Source of the DNA: Murinocardiopsis flavida
Lineage (GTDB): Bacteria; Actinomycetota; Actinomycetes; Streptosporangiales; Streptosporangiaceae
DNA length: 64,000 nt
Direction of reading: 5' to 3'
NCBI RefSeq assembly: GCF_003014485.1
Contig: NZ_PYGA01000021.1
Location: 62,001-126,000, forward strand
The position numbers and the translations under genes are program-made. Below, piece after piece: positions 15,521 through 37,110 of the stretch. The notes beneath the pieces were generated by a model, which saw only the letters and a list, made by a program, of their open reading frames with translations, was not told the DNA's origin and did no database searches. Position 1 is the first letter of the stretch. Each line of letters starts with the position of its first letter.

Positions 15521-17092
15521 TTACAGCAGGCCCTTGGCGACGCCGCCCAGCGGGCCGGTCAGCATCGGCATGCCCGACATCTCGACGGGCGCGGCGGGCG
15601 CGCTCTGGTGGACGACGGCGGAGCCGTTGTCGTTGGAGTTGGCGTTGGCCAGGCCCAGGACCGCGACCGCGTTGCCGGTCACGTTCACGGGGACGTCGGC
15701 GTCCACGTCGGCCTGGTTGCCGCCGAGCACCGAGCCGTCGCCCGAGGACTCGTTCTCGTCGCCGCTCTGGTGGACGACCGCGGTGCCGCTCTCGTTGCAG
15801 TTGGCGTTCGCCAGGCCGATGACGGCCCCGACCGCGTTGCCGCACACGTTCACGGGGACGTCGGCGTCCACGTCGGCCTGGTTGCCGCCGAGCACCGAGC
15901 CGTCGCCCGAGGACTCGTTCTCGTCGCCGGAGCTCTGGTGCACGATGCCCTTGACCGAGCCCAGCTTGTCCGTGGACAGGCCCCCGGCGCGCTGGTGCAT
16001 GCGGTCGTCGTCGTCATGGTCGTGACCGGTCTCGACGACGGCCGCGCCCGCACCGTTGCAGTTGGAGTTCGCGGCGCCGAGGACGGCCACCGAGAGGCTG
16101 CACACGTTCACGGGGATGTCGGCCTCGGCGTCGAGCTGGTTGCCGCTCAGCACCGAGCCGTCGCCGGAGGACTCGTTCTCGTCGCCCGCGCTCTGGTGCA
16201 CGACGGCCGAGCCGGTGTCGTTGGCGTTGGCATTGGCAAGGCCCAGGACCGCGACCGCGTTGCCGGACACGTTCACCGGAACGTTGGCTTCCAGGTCCAG
16301 CTGGTTGCCGCTCAGCACCGAACCGTCGCCCGAGGTCTCGTTCTCGTCGCCCGCGCTCTGGTGCACGACGGCCGAGCCGGTGTCGTTGGCGTTGGCATTG
16401 GCAAGGCCCAGGACCGCGACCGCGTTGCCGGACACGTTCACCGGAACGTTGGCTTCCAGGTCCAGCTGGTTGCCGCTCAGCACCGAACCGTCGCCCGAGG
16501 TCTCGTTCTCGTCGCCCGCGCTCTGGTGCACGACCGAACCGGTGTTGTCGGCGTTGGCGTTGGTCAGCCCGATCACGGACACGGCGTTGCCGGACACGTT
16601 CACCGGAACGTTGACGTCGCCGACGACCTGGTTGCCGCCGAGCACCGCGCCGTCGCCGGAGGTCTCGTTCTCGTCGCCCCCGCGGTCGTGCACGATCGCC
16701 GCGCTGCCGTTGCAGTTGGCGTTCGCCAGGCCGACCACGGCGCCGACCGCGTTGCCGCAGGCGTTGACGGGGACGTTGACGTCGCCGACGATCTGGTTGC
16801 CGCTGCCCACCGCGCCGTCGCCGGAGGACTCGTTCTCGTCGCCGCCGCGCTGGTGGACGACCGCCGAGCCGGTGTCGTTGGCGTTGGCATTGGCAAGGCC
16901 CAGGACCGCGACCGCGTTGCCGGACACGTTCACGGGCACGTTGCCCTCGACGACGGCCTGGTTGCCGCTCAGCACCGAGCCGTCGCCCGAGGACTCGTTC
17001 TCGGAGTCCGCCATGGCGATTCCGCTGCCGAGGGCGACGAAGCCGGCGGTGAGCAGGGCGGTCCTGGCGGAGGTACGAACCCACTTACGCAT
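15521..17092 (-). CDS. Secreted protein of eight chaplin-like repeats
   Basis: 523 residues. A signal peptide (MRKWVRTSARTALL, hydrophobic core, AMA-DS) is followed by eight repeats of about 54 residues, each with GDG-VLSGNQ, then VPVNV-GNAVAVLGLANAN and a VVHQ spacer. The core resembles the chaplin domain of streptomycete aerial-surface amyloids. Repeats 2, 6 and 7 keep a pair of cysteines as in chaplins; the others have lost them. Repeat 6 carries an acidic-His insertion (GHDHDDDD). There is no LPXTG motif or membrane anchor, so the protein is probably released or assembled on the surface. The start has AAAGGAAA upstream. It is the first of a three-gene surface-protein group. Surface coat or amyloid formation is inference. 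Confidence 0.78.
   Translation of the reverse strand: MRKWVRTSARTALLTAGFVALGSGIAMADSENESSGDGSVLSGNQAVVEGNVPVNVSGNAVAVLGLANANANDTGSAVVHQRGGDENESSGDGAVGSGNQIVGDVNVPVNACGNAVGAVVGLANANCNGSAAIVHDRGGDENETSGDGAVLGGNQVVGDVNVPVNVSGNAVSVIGLTNANADNTGSVVHQSAGDENETSGDGSVLSGNQLDLEANVPVNVSGNAVAVLGLANANANDTGSAVVHQSAGDENETSGDGSVLSGNQLDLEANVPVNVSGNAVAVLGLANANANDTGSAVVHQSAGDENESSGDGSVLSGNQLDAEADIPVNVCSLSVAVLGAANSNCNGAGAAVVETGHDHDDDDRMHQRAGGLSTDKLGSVKGIVHQSSGDENESSGDGSVLGGNQADVDADVPVNVCGNAVGAVIGLANANCNESGTAVVHQSGDENESSGDGSVLGGNQADVDADVPVNVTGNAVAVLGLANANSNDNGSAVVHQSAPAAPVEMSGMPMLTGPLGGVAKGLL
16206..16535. repeat. Perfect 165 bp tandem duplication inside the chaplin-like gene
   Basis: Two adjacent 165-base units (from 16206 and from 16371) read the same throughout as far as I can compare them. 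They encode repeats 4 and 5 with identical protein sequence, while other repeats differ at many sites. The unit is a multiple of three, so expansion or contraction keeps the frame. Identity at silent sites points to a recent duplication. Confidence 0.85.
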
Positions 17093-17314
17093 GTGGGATT
17101 TCCTTTCGAAGCGGTGTTCTGAAATGAGATGGAATCGTGCGCGGTCGCTGCGTCGGGTGCTCCTGGCCGGAGCAGGCCGCAGAAACCTGGGATCATCCGC
17201 TGATCCGACACACCTGGCGGATGTGCCGCCACCGGACGGGCGGGCGCGCAACGCCTCCACGCTGGGGGGAGATGCACGCCGTGTCGGTTCCGCCCTGGTG
17301 GGGCGGCTGCCGAC

Positions 17315-26089: not shown

Positions 26090-27382
26090 ATGGCAAGGTG
26101 GGAAGAGGCCCACTGGGAGTCCAGCGTGGACGCTGGCCTACCGCGCTCGGCGCAACGCTCCGGGCCGTACCAGCGGTATGTTCCTGACACCATCGATGGC
26201 TTCGCACTGGGTATCGACGGCGGCCTCTCGCGGGAGGTTACTGCTATCGAGCGAAGTATCCGCGCCCTCAACAGCCTGGGGGCGGAGAACTTGTCCGGCA
26301 TTGCACGGTTCCTGCTGCGCTCCGAGGCCATCGCCAGCTCACGAATCGAAGGCATCAGCCCATCGGCACAGCAGGTCGCCCTCGCTGAACTGGGCCAGTC
26401 TGCGGCCGTTCGTGGTGTAAGCGAACAGGCGCAAGTCGTCGCCAACAACATGACGATCGTGCGGCAGTCGACGACCGGACTTGCCGAGGTCGACACCTTG
26501 ACGGTCGACCACGTCGTCTGGCTCCATCAGTCACTGCTTCCCGACCAGCCGCGGCACCACGGCCTGCGCAAAGTGCAGAACTGGATCGGTGGCTCGGACT
26601 GGAGCCCGATCGGGGCGGACTTCGTCCCGCCGGATCCCGAGCGGGTACCTGAGCTGATGGCTGACCTCATCGACTACATGAACGGGGCCGCCCATGCTCC
26701 GTTGATCCAAGCCGCTGTCGTCCATGCTCAATTTGAGACGATCCACCCCTTCACCGACGGCAACGGGCGCGTGGGCCGTGCGCTCATCCACACAGTCCTG
26801 GCTCGTCGCGGGCTGACCGAACGCGCGGTTCTACCGATCAGCCTTGTACTCGCCACACTGCGAGACACCTACATCACCGGGCTGAACGCGTACCGGCACG
26901 ATGCGCCTGCTGCCAGCGTGGACGCGAGTGCATCAATCAATGGATGGCTGGCGACCTTCGTTCAATCCTCCGCTGTCGCTGTCGAACAATCGCAGACGCT
27001 TATGGAACAGATCGAGGATCTCCGTTCCGACTGGACCAGTCGCTTGTCGACCTATCGAAAATCTGTCGGCCTACGCGCAACGCCGCGCGCGGATTCAGCC
27101 GTTGCGCGCTTGTTGGGCCAACTTCCCGAGGCGCCTGTGGTTACAGCAACGACCTTGTCGAAGATCCTCGATATCTCGTTCCCCGCAGCGAGCGCCGCCC
27201 TGGATGAGCTGCATCAGGCCGGGGTTCTGCGGACCAAGTCGATCGAACGTGGGGCCACCGCCTACCTCGCCCGCGAGGTGTTCGATCTGATCACACTGAC
27301 AGAGCGCGCCTTGGCGAGCACGAAGTTCGACACCCGTACTACTCCTCCGAACCGTCCGGTTCCAGCCCGCCCTGAGAAGTGA
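26090..27382 (+). CDS. Fic family protein (class II, autoinhibited)
   Basis: 430 residues. An N-terminal Fic_N region carries SSRIEG near residue 86, which fits the (S/T)xxxE(G/N) inhibitory motif that blocks the ATP site in cis. The catalytic loop HPFTDGNGRVGR starts at residue 219 with all key residues, so AMP transfer to a target hydroxyl is expected once inhibition is lifted. The C-terminal part ends in a winged-helix-like stretch (TATTLSKILDISFPAASAAL). Its GC content looks lower than its neighbours' and it lies inside the tRNA-linked region, consistent with transfer. Targets are unknown; roles in toxin-type growth control or in regulation are both possible. Confidence 0.9.
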   Translation: MARWEEAHWESSVDAGLPRSAQRSGPYQRYVPDTIDGFALGIDGGLSREVTAIERSIRALNSLGAENLSGIARFLLRSEAIASSRIEGISPSAQQVALAELGQSAAVRGVSEQAQVVANNMTIVRQSTTGLAEVDTLTVDHVVWLHQSLLPDQPRHHGLRKVQNWIGGSDWSPIGADFVPPDPERVPELMADLIDYMNGAAHAPLIQAAVVHAQFETIHPFTDGNGRVGRALIHTVLARRGLTERAVLPISLVLATLRDTYITGLNAYRHDAPAASVDASASINGWLATFVQSSAVAVEQSQTLMEQIEDLRSDWTSRLSTYRKSVGLRATPRADSAVARLLGQLPEAPVVTATTLSKILDISFPAASAALDELHQAGVLRTKSIERGATAYLAREVFDLITLTERALASTKFDTRTTPPNRPVPARPEK

Positions 27383-27494
27383 TCGCCCTCCCGCCCATCT
27401 CAGGACCCAACCTGGATGAACAAGCTGCCCCAAGCGCAGCATCATTCATCCGAAGAAGAGGGCGTTCTGCGGGAGGCTGCTGCCGACCTGACGC

Positions 27495-28244
27495 CTACAT
27501 CGCTGCGTCAGCGAAGCGTCCTTGCCCACCCCACTGCTTGATCAGCCGACCCCAGCGATCCTTGTGATCGAAGCGGGCCGCGATCTCGCGTCCGGTGGGG
27601 AGGGAGCCGTCCTCTCTGCGGTTGGCCAGGGCCGAGTACCATGCCTCGATCTGGACCTCCGGCACTGCATCCGACGGGTTCACGGTCTCCGTGGCTGTGG
27701 TCATCCAAGGCTCCTCCGCCGCATCGACCACATGCAGCCGCGGACGACCGTCACTGGCGGGCCCGGACTCCTCTGCGTTCACGGGTGTCTTCGGATCCGC
27801 CGGATCGTCCTCAGCGATGCGTACCGCTTGCTCATCGTCTGCGTTCGCGGTGCGTACGCTGCGGGCGTCGATGCGGAACTCACGCATGAGCAGTTCTTAG
27901 GCGCCCATCAGGGCGAAGCTGGGCCAAGCGTGGATCACCCGCGACCACACGGTGGGGTCGGCGACAGCGATGTTGGCCGCGAGCGACGCGACACTGCCAA
28001 GGACAAGCAGTGTCCACGGCAGCATTCCTCCGCGTCGGCCATGCCTGGCATCGGCCAGCAGCGCCATCGAGGATGCGACGATCATCCCGTCGACCGACAG
28101 CGGGAACAGGGCCGCGCGCCAAGGCGGCTCCCCGTGGCGCTGGGCCAGATCGAACATGTGGCTGTACGAGACGACGGCCGCGATGGCGGCCAGCATGAGC
28201 ACGGAGGCGATGGTTGTCCGGCGGGACCAGCGGGAAGTGTCCAT
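27495..28244 (-). pseudogene. DUF2637 membrane protein gene split by one in-frame stop
   Basis: From ATG 28244 the frame encodes four hydrophobic segments typical of DUF2637 proteins, found in actinomycete integrative and conjugative elements (SYSHMFDLAQRHGEPPWRA, PLSVDGMIVASSMALL). At codon 116 it meets TAA (27899-27901), and the same frame continues at once with ELLMREFRIDARSV and a C-terminal part to 27495 ending in DRWGRLIKQWGGQGRF. The expected sequence across the gap is MGAYELLMR, so a single TAC/TAT to TAA change explains the break. Translation could restart at the ATG three codons later. The start lies at the edge of the 83 bp repeat. Confidence 0.8.
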
Positions 28245-28325
28245 TGCAGGTCACCGCCTGTCCAGCGCAAAGGACGTGGCCAGGTCGAAGGCATGTGCCA
28301 GAGGTTGGTCTCCCCCCTCGGACAC
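28243..28325. repeat. 83 bp direct repeat, copy B, with tRNA-end core
   Basis: Begins at the DUF2637 start codon and ends in TCCCCCCTCGGACACA (28311-28326 including one more base), the full 16-base core of the tRNA-Leu 3' end. Copy A is at 25419-25501. A recombinase remnant starts four bases to the right. Confidence 0.9.
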
Positions 28326-28329
28326 AGAA

Positions 28330-28705
28330 TTACCCCATGAGCGGGTACAAGCCCGGTCCCGGCTGAACTTTCAGGTCGCCTGAAGCCGGGACCGCGACGT
28401 CTCCCGCCGACGCAACCCTCCAGGTCGCTCGGTCGCACACGATCATCAGGTCGGTCGCACGCAAGTGCCGGACGACATCGAGCGGTTCGCGCCCTGGGAA
28501 AGCCCCCGGCAATGCCTCCAGCAGCCGGTCCTCGCGCACATGCAGTCCCTTCGTCCGACCGACGCCATGCGGCCGGGCACTGCTGTGACCGTGGCGACAG
28601 CGATACCCCGCCCGATCGTTGGCCCAGTGCGCATCCATCCGCCGGCCGCAGTCCCGGCACGCCAGCCCGCAGGCGCCGGTTGCACTCGGGCGGTTCAGAG
28701 TTGCT
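28330..28705 (-). pseudogene. Recombinase zinc-ribbon remnant
   Basis: The minus strand reads CGLACRDCGRRMDAHWAND then AGYRCRHGHSSARP, a zinc-ribbon of the kind found near the C-terminus of large serine recombinases, and continues for about 75 residues to a stop at 28330, beside the attachment core. A stop codon lies in frame just upstream of the ribbon and no catalytic domain is present. It is the third recombinase remnant abutting a tRNA-end core in this window. Confidence 0.6.
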
Positions 28706-28718
28706 CACGTGTCCGATT

Positions 28719-28748
28719 TTGCCGGGTTGCCCCGTTGACCAGTATACT
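28719..28748 (+). promoter_or_regulatory. Promoter, probably giving a leaderless mRNA
   Basis: TTGCCG (28719-28724), an 18-base spacer and TATACT (28743-28748) make a good housekeeping-type promoter. The expected transcription start, about seven to ten bases after the -10, falls at or next to the GTG start codon at 28758, and no ribosome-binding sequence is present, so the transcript is probably leaderless. Confidence 0.55.
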
Positions 28749-28757
28749 TTAGCGCTT

Positions 28758-30539
28758 GTGAGAGAAACCACGGCGAATCTCCCATCAGCGGTTCGCCGCG
28801 TCAGCGCTCTACAACCCGGTTGGCGGACCAACCGAACATCACTTCGAGTGCTCTGTGTCCTCCACAGTGTCACCGCGGCCACGCGCATCACCGACGTGCT
28901 ACCCGCCTTCTATGATCGACGTGTGCAACTCTTCTGCACGCAGACCAGCGATGCCATGTTCTCTGCTGGTGTCGAGGAATACATGAGCGAGTACGGATTC
29001 CTCTGCTTGTCTTGGGAACAGGCAATGAGCATCGATTTCGATCTTGTCATTGCAGCGAGTCTCGGCGACAACCTCCACGAAATAAAATCTCCGATTCTGC
29101 GCCTAGCGCACGGAAACGGTTATAATAAGTATAGTAATAGGGAGCCGGGAGCCGGGAGCCGGGAGCCGGGAGCCGGGAGCCGGGAGCCGGGAGCCGGGAG
29201 CCGGGAGCCGGGAGCCTTCGGGTTGACCGAGGACACGTTGAAGTACGGCGATCGCGTCGTTCCATCTGCTATCGGGCTTTCTCACTTCGAGCAGTTGGAT
29301 CGGCTCGCTGAAGGGTGTCCCGATGCTCTTCCGCGGGCATTTATCGCGGGTGACCCCTGTTACGACCGACTCATCGCAAGCCTCCCCCGCCGACTCAATT
29401 ACCGCCACGCGTTCGGGCTGCACCCCGGCCAGCGGCTCATCACCGTCAATTCCACGTGGAAATATGACTCCCTCTTCGGGATCGACCCTATGCTCATCCC
29501 GCGTCTTCTCGAACAATTGCCCTATGACGGGTTCCGGATCGCTCTCATTCTGCATCCCAATATCTGGGCCTCCCATAGCAGACTCCAAATCGAGTCATGG
29601 CTTTTCGATGCGCGCCGCGCCGGCCTGCTGTTGATCCCACCGAACGAGGGCTGGCGGGCGGCTGTCATCGCTGCCGATTGGGTGGTCTCCGATCATGGGT
29701 CCGTCAGTATGTACGCCGCCGCTCTGGGGCGTCCGGTGCTGCTGGAGAAGAGCGCCTGGTCCGCGATCGATCCGAGGTCCGGGCTCGGCAGGCTCTTCGA
29801 CGTGGCGCCCACTCTCGACCCCTTGGCGCCCATCACACCGCAGTTGCGGCTCGCCGATGACCTTCGTGCCCAGACGCACGCTCTTGCCGAGACCTGGGTC
29901 AGCTCTGCTCCCGGCCACGCCCTCGCATTGATACGGAACGCGGCCTACCGGCTCATGGGCACGCCGGCGCCCACGGCCGAACCGGTGCTTCTCGCCCTCC
30001 CCGACCCCGAGATCGGTGCGGCCATACCCTCTGCCTTGTGGATGCACGTCGAGCAGACCAACGGTGGCGGCGGACCCAGCGACCTCGACGTACGGCGGAC
30101 CCCGGCCGCCGTCGCCAACAAAGCTCCGATACCCGCCCATGGCGCGGAGGGGGTACTGATCGTCTCCGACGGGGAGCTGGACCACCGGCTTTCGAGCATG
30201 GCCGACATTGTCGGCATCGCCCGCTCAGCCCTACCGGCTGATGAAGTGACGTGGTCGCACAGCATTTTCGAGCACCGCTTCGGGGTCCGGCTGACCGTCG
30301 TCCACGACAGCGGCAGCGCCAAGGTGCGTTCACGCGAGGGCCGGGTGGCCTCAATCGCCCTCGAATCGATCACCCACCCTGGTGACGCCGAACTGGTGTT
30401 CGCCGTGCTGGCCGAACGCGCCCTCGGCGACGAGAGTGCTCTTGAGGACGTTGCGGCGCTGAGACAGCTGCGGCTCAACGTCTCGCCGGACCGCACCATC
30501 GCCGCCGAGTTCCGCACCACGCTGGGGCCGACGGGGTAA
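28758..30539 (+). CDS. GT-B-like protein with in-frame heptanucleotide repeat
   Basis: 593 residues from GTG 28758. The first 380 or so residues look like a GT-B / CDP-glycerol glycerophosphotransferase-type fold: FDLVIAASLGD, LAHGNGYNKYS, FIAGDPCYDRL, RIALILHPNIW, WVVSDHGSVSMYAAALGRPVLL. Related actinomycete proteins are mostly uncharacterised. Between YNKYS and the GLTEDTLKYGD region, eleven copies of a 7-base unit encode a REPGAGS-like repeat. Because seven is not a multiple of three, gain or loss of one unit would switch the gene off. The C-terminal third is of unknown type. It is convergent with the NB-ARC gene with only four bases between stops. A role in surface polymer or in a defence pair is speculation. 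Confidence 0.75.
   Translation: MRETTANLPSAVRRVSALQPGWRTNRTSLRVLCVLHSVTAATRITDVLPAFYDRRVQLFCTQTSDAMFSAGVEEYMSEYGFLCLSWEQAMSIDFDLVIAASLGDNLHEIKSPILRLAHGNGYNKYSNREPGAGSREPGAGSREPGAGSREPGAFGLTEDTLKYGDRVVPSAIGLSHFEQLDRLAEGCPDALPRAFIAGDPCYDRLIASLPRRLNYRHAFGLHPGQRLITVNSTWKYDSLFGIDPMLIPRLLEQLPYDGFRIALILHPNIWASHSRLQIESWLFDARRAGLLLIPPNEGWRAAVIAADWVVSDHGSVSMYAAALGRPVLLEKSAWSAIDPRSGLGRLFDVAPTLDPLAPITPQLRLADDLRAQTHALAETWVSSAPGHALALIRNAAYRLMGTPAPTAEPVLLALPDPEIGAAIPSALWMHVEQTNGGGGPSDLDVRRTPAAVANKAPIPAHGAEGVLIVSDGELDHRLSSMADIVGIARSALPADEVTWSHSIFEHRFGVRLTVVHDSGSAKVRSREGRVASIALESITHPGDAELVFAVLAERALGDESALEDVAALRQLRLNVSPDRTIAAEFRTTLGPTG
29140..29216 (+). repeat. Eleven perfect GGGAGCC units (simple sequence repeat)
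   Basis: 77 bases made of eleven uninterrupted copies of the heptamer GGGAGCC inside the coding region. With eleven units the frame is open on both sides; 8 or 14 would also be open, while 9, 10, 12 or 13 would not. Directly upstream is an AT-rich stretch with TATAAT (29121-29126), unusual for this DNA. Confidence 0.95.
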
Positions 30540-34214: not shown

Positions 34215-35732
34215 ATGGCACACGGTGCTGACGACAATGGTGTTCCCGACGGCGTGGATGCTTCCTTGCGGAGCGTGGCAGGTTCTGAAGGCGGGGGCGG
34301 GCCGGGGTCGGCGGACGGCCTGATCGCCGCGCTGCGCGGCTCCGTCGACCCATCCGGCCGACCCGCGCCCGCCTCACAGCGGCGGCCGCGCCGCGGCGAC
34401 GTCGCCACCTACCGGGTGCGGGTGGAGCTCACGGGGACGAACCCGCCCCTGTGGCGGCGCCTGGAGCTGGATTCGGACCTGTTCCTCAACGAGGTCCACG
34501 GCATCCTCCAGACCGTCTTCGGCTGGCAGGACTACCACTTGCACCGCTTCGCCAGCGGCCCGTTGTACTACAGCGATGACACCGAGTACTACCTGGCTCC
34601 GTTCGAGGCCGCCGAAGGCGAGACGGGCATCCCCGAGGAACAGGTGCGCCTGGACGAGGTCCTGGCCGAGGCGGGAGACCGGCTGTTCTACCTCTACGAC
34701 TTCGGTGACGACTGGGAGCACCTGATCACCCTCCAGGCGGTACTGCCCCGCACCGAGAACGTACCGAAAGCCAGGTGCACCGACGGCAAGCGCCCCGCTC
34801 CAGCCGAAGACTGCGGGGGCATAGGCGGCTATGAACTCCAGGTCGCGGCCACCGATCCCGGCCATCCCGACCACACCGCGGCGCTCGCCGAGTACCGCGC
34901 CTCCTTCGGTGAGGAGTCCGATCCGGGCGAGTTCGCGCCCGCACCGTTCGAGATCGACGCGACCAACGCCGCCCTGACCGCGCTGTCCACACCTCCTCCA
35001 ACCAACCTGCCCGGTCCCGTCGCGGACCTGGTGGCCGCCACTCGCGACCCCGCCGCCGCGCGCCGCCTCTACGAGCTGATCGACCAAGCCGGTCTTGGGG
35101 AGCCCGCCGACATCGACCCGACCGACGCGGCAGCGATGGTGCACCCCTATGCCTGGCTGCTGGACCACGTCGGGACCGAGGGCATCAAGCTCACCGGCGC
35201 CGGCTACTTGCCGCCCGCCAGCGTCGAGGCCGCGGCGGCAGAGCTCGACCTCGGCAAAGAGTGGATCGGCAAGCTCAACCGGGAGATCCAGACCTACCCG
35301 GTGTTCCACCTGCGCACATCGGCCCAGGCCCTGGGACTGCTGCGCAAGCACCGGGGCCGGCTCCTGCCCACCCCGGCCGGCAGAAGAGCCAAGAGCGACC
35401 CCTCGACCCTCTGGAACCATCTGGCCCAGCGCCTGCCGCTCAAGACCGGACACGTGCACGAACGGCAGGCCGGACTGCTCCTGCTCCTGGCCGTTGCCGC
35501 CGAACGCGGTGGCGGTTTCCAGGTGGCCGCCGACATCCTCAACGGGATCGGCTGGCGCCTCGACGGCCATACCCCCCTTGTCCACACGGACGCGTCCGGC
35601 GCCGCCCGCGACACCACCGACGTGCTGAGCCGCATCGGCGCCGCCACAACCGACGGGTGGCCGCCGCAACTCCGCACCCTCCCCCACGGCTCCGCCTTCG
35701 CCCGCGCCGCCCTGCGCTCATGGCCCGACTGA
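34215..35732 (+). CDS. Plasmid pRiA4b ORF-3 family protein
   Basis: 505 residues. Residues about 65-230 form the domain named after plasmid pRiA4b ORF-3 (also seen as a passenger of IS1096): YRVRVELTGTNPPLWRRLEL, then LHRFASGPLYY, then LFYLYDFGDDWEHLITL. This domain is widespread on mobile DNA and has no firmly known function. The remaining 270 residues are helical, without a named domain. A GTG or ATG upstream is absent; ATG 34215 is used. It lies in the accessory region and is consistent with mobile DNA. Confidence 0.85.
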   Translation: MAHGADDNGVPDGVDASLRSVAGSEGGGGPGSADGLIAALRGSVDPSGRPAPASQRRPRRGDVATYRVRVELTGTNPPLWRRLELDSDLFLNEVHGILQTVFGWQDYHLHRFASGPLYYSDDTEYYLAPFEAAEGETGIPEEQVRLDEVLAEAGDRLFYLYDFGDDWEHLITLQAVLPRTENVPKARCTDGKRPAPAEDCGGIGGYELQVAATDPGHPDHTAALAEYRASFGEESDPGEFAPAPFEIDATNAALTALSTPPPTNLPGPVADLVAATRDPAAARRLYELIDQAGLGEPADIDPTDAAAMVHPYAWLLDHVGTEGIKLTGAGYLPPASVEAAAAELDLGKEWIGKLNREIQTYPVFHLRTSAQALGLLRKHRGRLLPTPAGRRAKSDPSTLWNHLAQRLPLKTGHVHERQAGLLLLLAVAAERGGGFQVAADILNGIGWRLDGHTPLVHTDASGAARDTTDVLSRIGAATTDGWPPQLRTLPHGSAFARAALRSWPD

Positions 35733-36002: not shown

Positions 36003-36245
36003 GTGCCGCATGTGGTGAAACCGAGCAAAGCCGAACTGGATGCATTGGTCGAGCGGGCCGTCGTCGACGCTTACGGCGAGTACGAACAGCTCACCGCCTT
36101 CCGTACAGCGGTCGCGCAAGGCAACGGTGCGCGGGTCCAGATGGAGTTGCTGCGCCGTTTCCGAGGCGAGCCCGACATTCTCAGCGGCGACGGCCGCCCC
36201 CGCCGCACGGTGGCCGAATTGCTGGACACCACCGCGACACCGCGA
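36003..36245 (+). pseudogene. N-terminal fragment resembling a small actinobacterial protein
   Basis: From GTG 36003 the frame reads KPSKAELDALVERAVVDAYG then EYEQLTAF, which resembles the N-terminus of a small actinobacterial family sometimes named calcium-binding protein, normally about 120-150 residues. Similarity fades after residue 40, and the frame runs on through the inverted and tandem repeats to 36965, which is not believable as protein. I take it as a gene start whose remainder has been replaced. Confidence 0.35.
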
Positions 36246-36315
36246 CACCAGGGGAGGATCCCCGCCGGGATCGCCCCGCACCGCTGTAGTCGGCGGGGCC
36301 ACGTAAGAGGAAGCG

Positions 36316-36648
36316 CGGGCCGAGACCACCCCCACCACAGCAGACCTCGGCAAGGCTGCCTGGAGGCTGCGAAGCAGCTACGGCCGAAGCACACCCCGAC
36401 GCGTGGCAACCAGACCCCGCCCGAAGACCGAGGTCGAGGTGCAGGCCCCCGCCTCGGACAGCAGCATCGGGCCCAGGTCCCGCGAAGCCTGCACAGCAGC
36501 CGAGGTGACGGGCGGTTCGGCCAGCGGCCGACTCCAAGTGCGGCCAGGGCCTGGCGATCACGAATCACGACGCGTATCGGCCGTAGCTGCTTCGCAGCCT
36601 CCAGGCAGCCATGCCAAGCTCCGCGGTGGTGGGGGTGGTCTTGGCCCG
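36316..36648. repeat. Long inverted repeat around a 190 bp core
   Basis: 36316-36387 is the reverse complement of 36577-36648, with the inner 34 bases of each arm (36354-36387 and 36577-36610) matching perfectly and the outer halves with a few differences. The 189 bases between the arms hold no gene I recognise. The arms could be ends of a small non-autonomous element or could form a large cruciform. Confidence 0.88.
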
Positions 36649-36871
36649 CCACCTCCGTGCGGAATTGCCGAGGTCCGCGGCGGTGGGGGGTGGCCTCGGC
36701 CCGCACCCCCGCGCGGAACTGCCAAGCTCCGCGGCGGTGCGCGATGGACTCGGCCCACCACCCCCACGCGGAACTGCCAAGCTCCGCGGCGGTGCGCGAT
36801 GGACTCGGCCCACCACCCTCACGCGGAACTGCCACGGTCCGCGGCGATGCGGGGCCATCTCGGCGAACACC
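36616..36871. repeat. Tandem array, about 4.7 units of 54-55 bp
   Basis: Units start at 36616, 36670, 36724, 36779 and 36834 (partial). Each begins with a TCCGCGG box and ends GCGGAA(C/T)TGCC, so that neighbouring ends pair as CGCGGA...TCCGCG, a hairpin at each junction. Units 3 and 4 differ at one site. The array starts inside the right arm of the inverted repeat. There are no spacers of unique sequence, so this is not a CRISPR. Confidence 0.9.
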
Positions 36872-36946
36872 GACGGCTGGCGGTTCTGGCGGGCGCCACT
36901 GGAAGGCTCCTGGACTCACTCCGCGACAAGTAGGGCACACGGGCGA

Positions 36947-37110
36947 GGGCGCCACCAGGGTATGACTACGCCTCCGGCTGAGTGGACGCGCTGCTACGGG
37001 TCCGCTTGCCTTCGGAGTCCCTCCCAGCGTTGGCGGCTGATGTCGCGCGCAGCCCTCCGGCCCGGCAGCGCGGGCTCACGGGCATGGCCCCTCCGCGTTC
37101 CGCATGCCGT
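36947..37110. repeat. IS5-type left-end remnant, copy 2
   Basis: Imperfect repeat of 25819-25980. Here no transposase body follows; the sequence runs directly into the end of the biosynthetic operon, whose last gene stops at its edge. It marks the junction between the repeat-rich stretch and the gene cluster. Confidence 0.72.

Follow-up and report, generated by a model that had tools for sequence, protein, structure and literature searches.

The window analysed here is a 64,000-nucleotide stretch of the Murinocardiopsis flavida genome. The gene of interest is an open frame of 593 codons that runs from a GTG at 28758 to a TAA at 30537-30539 and contains a tandem heptamer array. Tandem Repeats Finder describes this array as period 7, with 11.0 copies, a 100% match and no indels, in exact agreement with the eleven error-free GGGAGCC repeats in a coding frame reported by the initial annotation. 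There is an alternative in-frame start upstream (ATG at 28512). However, the GTG is favoured because a putative promoter, TTGCCG-18-TATACT (consensus scan, 9/12 matches), ends 10 nt 5' of it. An in-frame tandem array whose unit size is not divisible by three is the layout of an SSR contingency locus. When 0-23 GGGAGCC units were simulated, a protein of 572-621 aa resulted at 2, 5, 8, 11, 14, 17, 20 and 23 units, and all remaining counts gave fragments of 132-207 aa. As read from its sequence, the window gene is ON at 11 units (Table 1).

Table 1. Features of the repeat-bearing gene, with positions in the window.
Feature	Position	Strand	Basis
Promoter-like TTGCCG-18-TATACT, near-leaderless start	28719..28748	+	Consensus scan, 9/12; alone no proof of function
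Putative phase-variable TagF-like GT-B gene, 593 codons, predicted ON with 11 units	28758..30539	+	Open frame, homologues, fold
HGNGYNK codons, corresponding to the conserved HGxGY[NT]K motif, directly 5' of the repeat site	29109..29129	+	Invariant residues, 54 homologues
TATAAT (TAYA[ACG]T hexamer; last T is the synonymous site coupled to array presence)	29121..29126	+	155/157 arrays, array-less relatives, tree test
(GGGAGCC)x11 putative frame-switching array, encoding disordered REPGAGS repeats	29140..29216	+	Tandem Repeats Finder; pLDDT <50
C-terminal part (FGLTEDTL...), read in frame only at copy number 2 mod 3	29217..30536	+	Frame simulation

Several other features were recorded in the window. 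Genes for a Fic protein, a DUF2637 protein and a plasmid pRiA4b ORF-3-like protein lie near the repeat-bearing gene (26090-28340 and 34215-35729) and are possibly the remnant of an integrative element. A 579-aa ORF on the minus strand (15521-17260) contains repeats of ~55 residues (GNQ...NVPVNV.GNAV.VLGLANAN) that seem chaplin-like on visual inspection, and a 55-bp tandem repeat of 4.4 copies (36612-36851) lies within or beside the ORF at 36003-36962.

Arrays of at least four GGGAGCC units were found in 18 of the 299 genomes of the window's family, with up to 17 overlapping matches per genome, compared with 1-2 matches in a handful of the same genomes for the reversed unit. The abundance of GGGAGCC arrays is therefore far above chance. 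In four other genomes of this family, long GGGAGCC arrays occupy the codon position of the window array, between the codons for HGNGYNK and FGLSED, and one assembly (G136) is broken within its GGGAGCC array. The only other long GGGAGCC array in the window genome has 12 units and lies at the 5' end of a paralogue (C14), as a leader-type array, while two further paralogues carry in-frame arrays of AATCCAC (C26, 10.7 units) and GGAAAAG (C7, 7.3 units). A genome-specific, templated repeat unit was ruled out, since paralogues within this one genome differ in their units.

A protein search led to a large family of homologues, others of which have perfect arrays of GGGAACA, GGATCGGC, GGAACCA, GGGAATCC, GGAAACC or GGAGTCA at the same site. 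A scan of named genomes yielded 80 loci (from Nocardiopsis, Nonomuraea, Actinomadura, Amycolatopsis, Saccharothrix, Lentzea, Frankia, Streptomyces, Kitasatospora, Nocardia and others), and its 59 at-site array calls had periods of 7 (51 calls), 8 (six) and 10 (two). Adding class-wide genomes, Streptomyces genomes and plasmid records gave an enlarged set of ~155 distinct arrays (period 7 in 136, period 8 in 13 and period 10 in seven), with ~60 different units at 3 to 33.7 copies (median 7.9); a period-6 call at L252, a three-copy GC run adjoining a two-copy heptamer remnant, was excluded. By comparison, only 15 comparable off-site arrays were present in ~1 Mb of related-locus flanks, and neighbouring paralogues account for several of these. 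The unit itself is not the same in two S. coelicoflavus strains (GGGAGCC versus GGAAGCC), which suggests that units can be replaced over a short time scale. G-quadruplex formation was ruled out as a common property of the arrays, as the G runs of many units are limited to GG or missing altogether, and single-strand structure of the array region was ruled out as well, its DNA fold being equal to shuffles or worse (z -0.5). No conserved teichoic-acid or defence cluster was found among the neighbouring genes of the few loci compared.

Some further arrays deserve mention in their own right. Adjacent paralogues on one Actinomadura contig (L112) each have an array, at ~2404 and ~6370. The two arrays differ in unit and in period (8 and 7), and only one of them is in frame. 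GGGAGCC also forms arrays of nine and 14 units at G264:C1:2888379-2888441 and G294:C4:1613938-1614035, with flanks unlike this TagF-like family. Approximately 1 kb upstream of a Streptomyces rimosus homologue lies a heptamer array of TGCCCAT (L171 5049-5117, 9.9 copies), preceded by GACAAT on the opposite strand.

Comparisons of copy number draw on relatives, as the window's own genus is represented by one genome only. For example, Lentzea albidocapillata has 7.4 units and is ON (L131), whereas its subsp. violacea has 8.4 units and is OFF (L145), at 96.1% identity over 3 kb. The same single-unit difference separates ON from OFF between Streptomyces loci L249 (4.3 units) and L281 (5.3 units), and between L228 (3.9 units) and L270 (4.9 units), where the unit is 10 bp long. 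Within Streptomyces anthocyanicus, strains NBC_01668 and NBC_01372 are eight units apart, with flanks that are 98.8% and 99.8% identical. The former has 17.6 units and is OFF, its annotated CDS beginning 3' of the array (1311 bp, 437 aa), while the latter has 9.6 units and is ON, with a CDS that spans the array (1770 bp, 590 aa). In OFF alleles, the reading frames on either side of the array are long and intact.

In a first deduplicated set of 73 arrays, compiled before Streptomyces was sampled, 64 were in frame and nine out, and no unit contained a stop codon in any frame. The enlarged set has frame 0 in 112 arrays and frames 1 or 2 in 44, a ratio that cannot be read as a rate, given the deliberate selection of OFF candidates. 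Sampling is in fact biased both ways, with best-matching loci favouring ON and many OFF alleles picked on purpose. The excess of ON alleles over the expected one third could reflect slow switching or selection for ON. These observations bear out the initial annotation's proposal that a change of unit number turns the gene on and off: copy number varies among relatives, OFF alleles occur in many assemblies and single-unit pairs flip the frame. Copy number among relatives is neither invariant nor restricted to three-unit steps, the two patterns that the annotation had named as speaking against a switch. Taken together, it is highly likely that the window gene is a contingency (phase-variable) gene, switched by its repeat and belonging to a class-wide multi-copy family.

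The encoded protein was modelled with AlphaFold2 using 54 homologues (pLDDT 90.6, pTM 0.91), and the predicted structure confirms the GT-B-like character noted initially. The repeat-encoded residues 130-147 are disordered in this model (pLDDT <50), and residues ~425-593 form a further C-terminal domain. The best Foldseek match was TagF (E 1.2e-10), closely followed by UDP-GlcNAc 2-epimerases. The window protein shares with TagF (PDB 3l7i-3l7m) an HG motif and a GT-B fold over model residues ~1-406. However, identity is only 10-12%, and VIA-align gives a Z of ~22 to TagF and to the epimerases alike, so the fold match is shared between them. Five residues of the HGxGYNK motif (H118, G119, G121, Y122 and K124) are invariant over the 54 homologues, and H118 would fall near H444 of TagF, as judged by the offset of the aligned ranges. 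Searches by sequence gave no Pfam match for the window protein (E cut-off 1), no NCBIfam family, no PADLOC anti-phage defence match (with one chance-level match among 21 family members) and no match at a useful E in a profile search of PDB sequences. Weak matches to PF04464 occur in six of 21 family members (best E 0.0015), short of the curated threshold. The model thus supports describing the window protein as a TagF-like GT-B protein, without a claim of PF04464 membership, and its fold together with the weak Pfam matches points to a putative enzyme.

A sister clade with the motif HG[IV]GF[HQN][KR] has no array at the HGxGY[NT]K site and carries one in the 5' leader instead. In the window's family, 13 such loci have arrays of period 7 (five) or 8 (eight) with up to 41 copies, and in most of them a TAnnnT sequence, often TAGAAT, lies 0-14 nt upstream of the array. 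In Streptomyces, 29 of 30 sister-clade loci have a leader array (28 of period 7, one of period 8) of up to 53 copies, most of them adjoining a conserved TTG...GATA promoter-like stretch. The longest examples are 53 units of GAGCCGC at L350 (-431..-61 relative to the projected gene start) and 41 units of AGGAGCCC at L323 (-337..-10), copy numbers that far exceed those of the intragenic arrays. Many leader arrays lie outside the reading frame, and selection on the frame alone therefore does not explain the 7/8-bp period. This weakens one argument for a switch but leaves the ON and OFF alleles unaffected.

The presence of an intragenic array is coupled to a synonymous nucleotide. Where an array is present, the codon before the motif's Lys is AAT in 102/102 Asn cases and ACT in 47/48 Thr cases, compared with AAC in 20, AAT in three, ACC in five and ACG in two of the array-less relatives; some of these array-less AAT cases show decayed arrays. 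Elsewhere in array genes, AAT accounts for 15% of Asn codons and ACT for 3% of Thr codons. The T completes a TAYA[ACG]T hexamer that is kept in 155/157 arrays, 3-16 nt (in one case 19) 5' of the array. A tree of the C-terminal part shows ~15 changes in array presence and ~14 in the T, and in seven supported independent pairs the two agree, with none opposite (median p ~0.016). General AT-richness upstream of the array was ruled out, as the preceding Tyr codon is TAC more often than TAT, although nearly all codons that follow it are NNT. The conserved hexamer is probably a functional nucleotide element, and would most simply be a -10-like element.

If so, the hexamer may add a second layer to the switch, as an internal -10 that starts transcription at the array, with promoter and array evolving as a unit, whether for mutability or for an internal transcript, both within coding sequences and in leaders. 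This idea is tentative. It is favoured by the near-constant hexamer, the codon usage and the tree test, as well as by the TAnnnT and TTG...GATA sequences beside leader arrays. However, no canonical -35 was found 17 nt 5' of the intragenic hexamer and the promoter scan called no promoter there. The same T also creates a TAA in the +2 frame, the T is absent at L251 and L264, and one array (L085) lies 30 nt further downstream without a TAYA[ACG]T. Within the leader set, L211 and L319 are weak cases, and leader genes require a promoter near the array regardless. A bolder version is somewhat less likely still: a dedicated, class-wide module in which a -10-like hexamer a few bases 5' of a 7/8/10-bp array, placed in active-site-loop coding sequence in one TagF-like clade and, in its sister clade, in the 5' leader, would keep the array alive or mutable, linking transcription start to repeat instability.

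Could the arrays instead be a mutational hot spot without function, born by slippage and merely tolerated in a disordered loop? Heptamers are over-represented in bacterial genomes, for which a slippage reason has been proposed (PMC4692102), and together with the leader arrays this means that a unit not divisible by three is no proof of selection for frame switching. The disorder of residues 130-147 would also suit a tolerated insertion. Nevertheless, the arrays recur at one codon across orders with few off-site in the flanks. Genes with an array retain the synonymous T, whereas most array-less relatives have lost it, and selection should remove junk that knocks out its host gene at two of every three copy numbers. 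A hot spot is accordingly improbable. Even less probable is a length-variable protein linker serving structural tuning, with out-of-frame copies as pseudogenes. The hydrophilic, disordered loop encoded by the repeat and the in-frame majority of the first set would fit such a linker, but units divisible by three would then be expected and there are none among the ~155 well-assigned arrays. The intact frames flanking the array in OFF alleles, and single-unit differences between near-identical strains that point to recent change, also speak against it.

Frameshifting by the ribosome or polymerase at the repeat, such that every allele yields some full-length protein and copy number tunes its level, is similarly hard to credit: G-rich repeats could stall either machine, an indirect argument only, but unit sequences vary widely and no shared slippery sequence was seen. 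Assembly artefact can practically be dismissed. Some contigs do end, or have N runs, inside arrays, yet the arrays come from many independent assemblies, and some of these are complete records whose copy numbers differ while their flanks are intact.

Under the favoured reading of a repeat-switched gene, replication slippage would probably add or remove 7-bp units, presumably reversibly within a clone. At a copy number of 2 mod 3, the N-terminal part, which extends through the catalytic-type HGxGYNK motif, would be translated in one frame with the remainder of the TagF-like GT-B enzyme, whereas other numbers would leave a fragment of ~130-210 residues and turn the enzyme off. The surface or wall polymer that it presumably makes or modifies, perhaps teichoic-acid-like, would then be switched off too, which may help cells to escape phages or competitors. 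Across the class Actinomycetes, most GY[NT]K-type members of this paralogous family carry an array of their own at this codon, and the units have been exchanged in the course of time. Several independent switches may thus operate per genome, and their paralogues could generate combinatorial surface states.

Similar systems are known from other bacteria. The closest is neuO of the E. coli K1 prophage CUS-3, which encodes a surface-polysaccharide-modifying enzyme, has an in-frame 7-bp array (AAGACTC) that sets the frame by copy number mod 3 and forms mixed ON/OFF populations (PMC13001214). However, the neuO array lies in the 5' region of a prophage cargo gene and has one unit sequence (PMC13001214), whereas the actinomycete arrays lie ~128 codons into chromosomal or plasmid paralogues, with units that vary between genes. 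The leader arrays of the sister clade instead resemble those of the Haemophilus influenzae adhesin genes hmw1A/hmw2A, where a 7-bp 5' UTR array directly follows the P2 -10 box and longer arrays lower expression (PMC8262952); the window gene is of the intragenic type. The initial annotation held contingency loci to be unusual in GC-rich actinomycetes, which does not hold: they are common in this gene family, and pglX of Streptomyces coelicolor, a DNA methyltransferase gene of an unrelated family and repeat type, is phase-variable by length change in a single G tract, with a phage-related benefit (PMC4365076). Tandem repeats in Mycobacterium tuberculosis promoters also vary in copy number within isogenic populations, and the accessible part of that source describes no 7/8-bp intragenic arrays of a TagF-like family (PMC12817950). 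The G-rich GGGAATC heptamers of Xanthomonas and Nostoc are similar in sequence to the window array but are dispersed, mainly intergenic and tied to no gene family (PMC4692102). No description of arrays like the present ones in actinomycetes was found in the open-access literature.

Simple-sequence contingency loci have been described mostly from host-adapted pathogens. New here is a conserved, multi-copy family of putative repeat-switched enzymes across Actinomycetes, with turnover of units at a fixed codon. Also new are the contrasting positions of the array in the two sister clades and the link between the intragenic array and a synonymous nucleotide. Judging from these genomes, soil actinomycetes very probably switch the enzymes on and off through gain and loss of repeats. 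Ordinary annotation conceals such a switch, as in S. anthocyanicus, where the OFF allele was entered as a shorter hypothetical protein. The coupling of a synonymous site to the array provides a testable clue to how bacterial repeat arrays persist. If the switch is real, stochastic surface variation would be a normal trait of free-living, antibiotic-producing soil bacteria, with several switches per genome, and would bear on phage resistance as well as on strain instability and colony variation in industrial Streptomyces.
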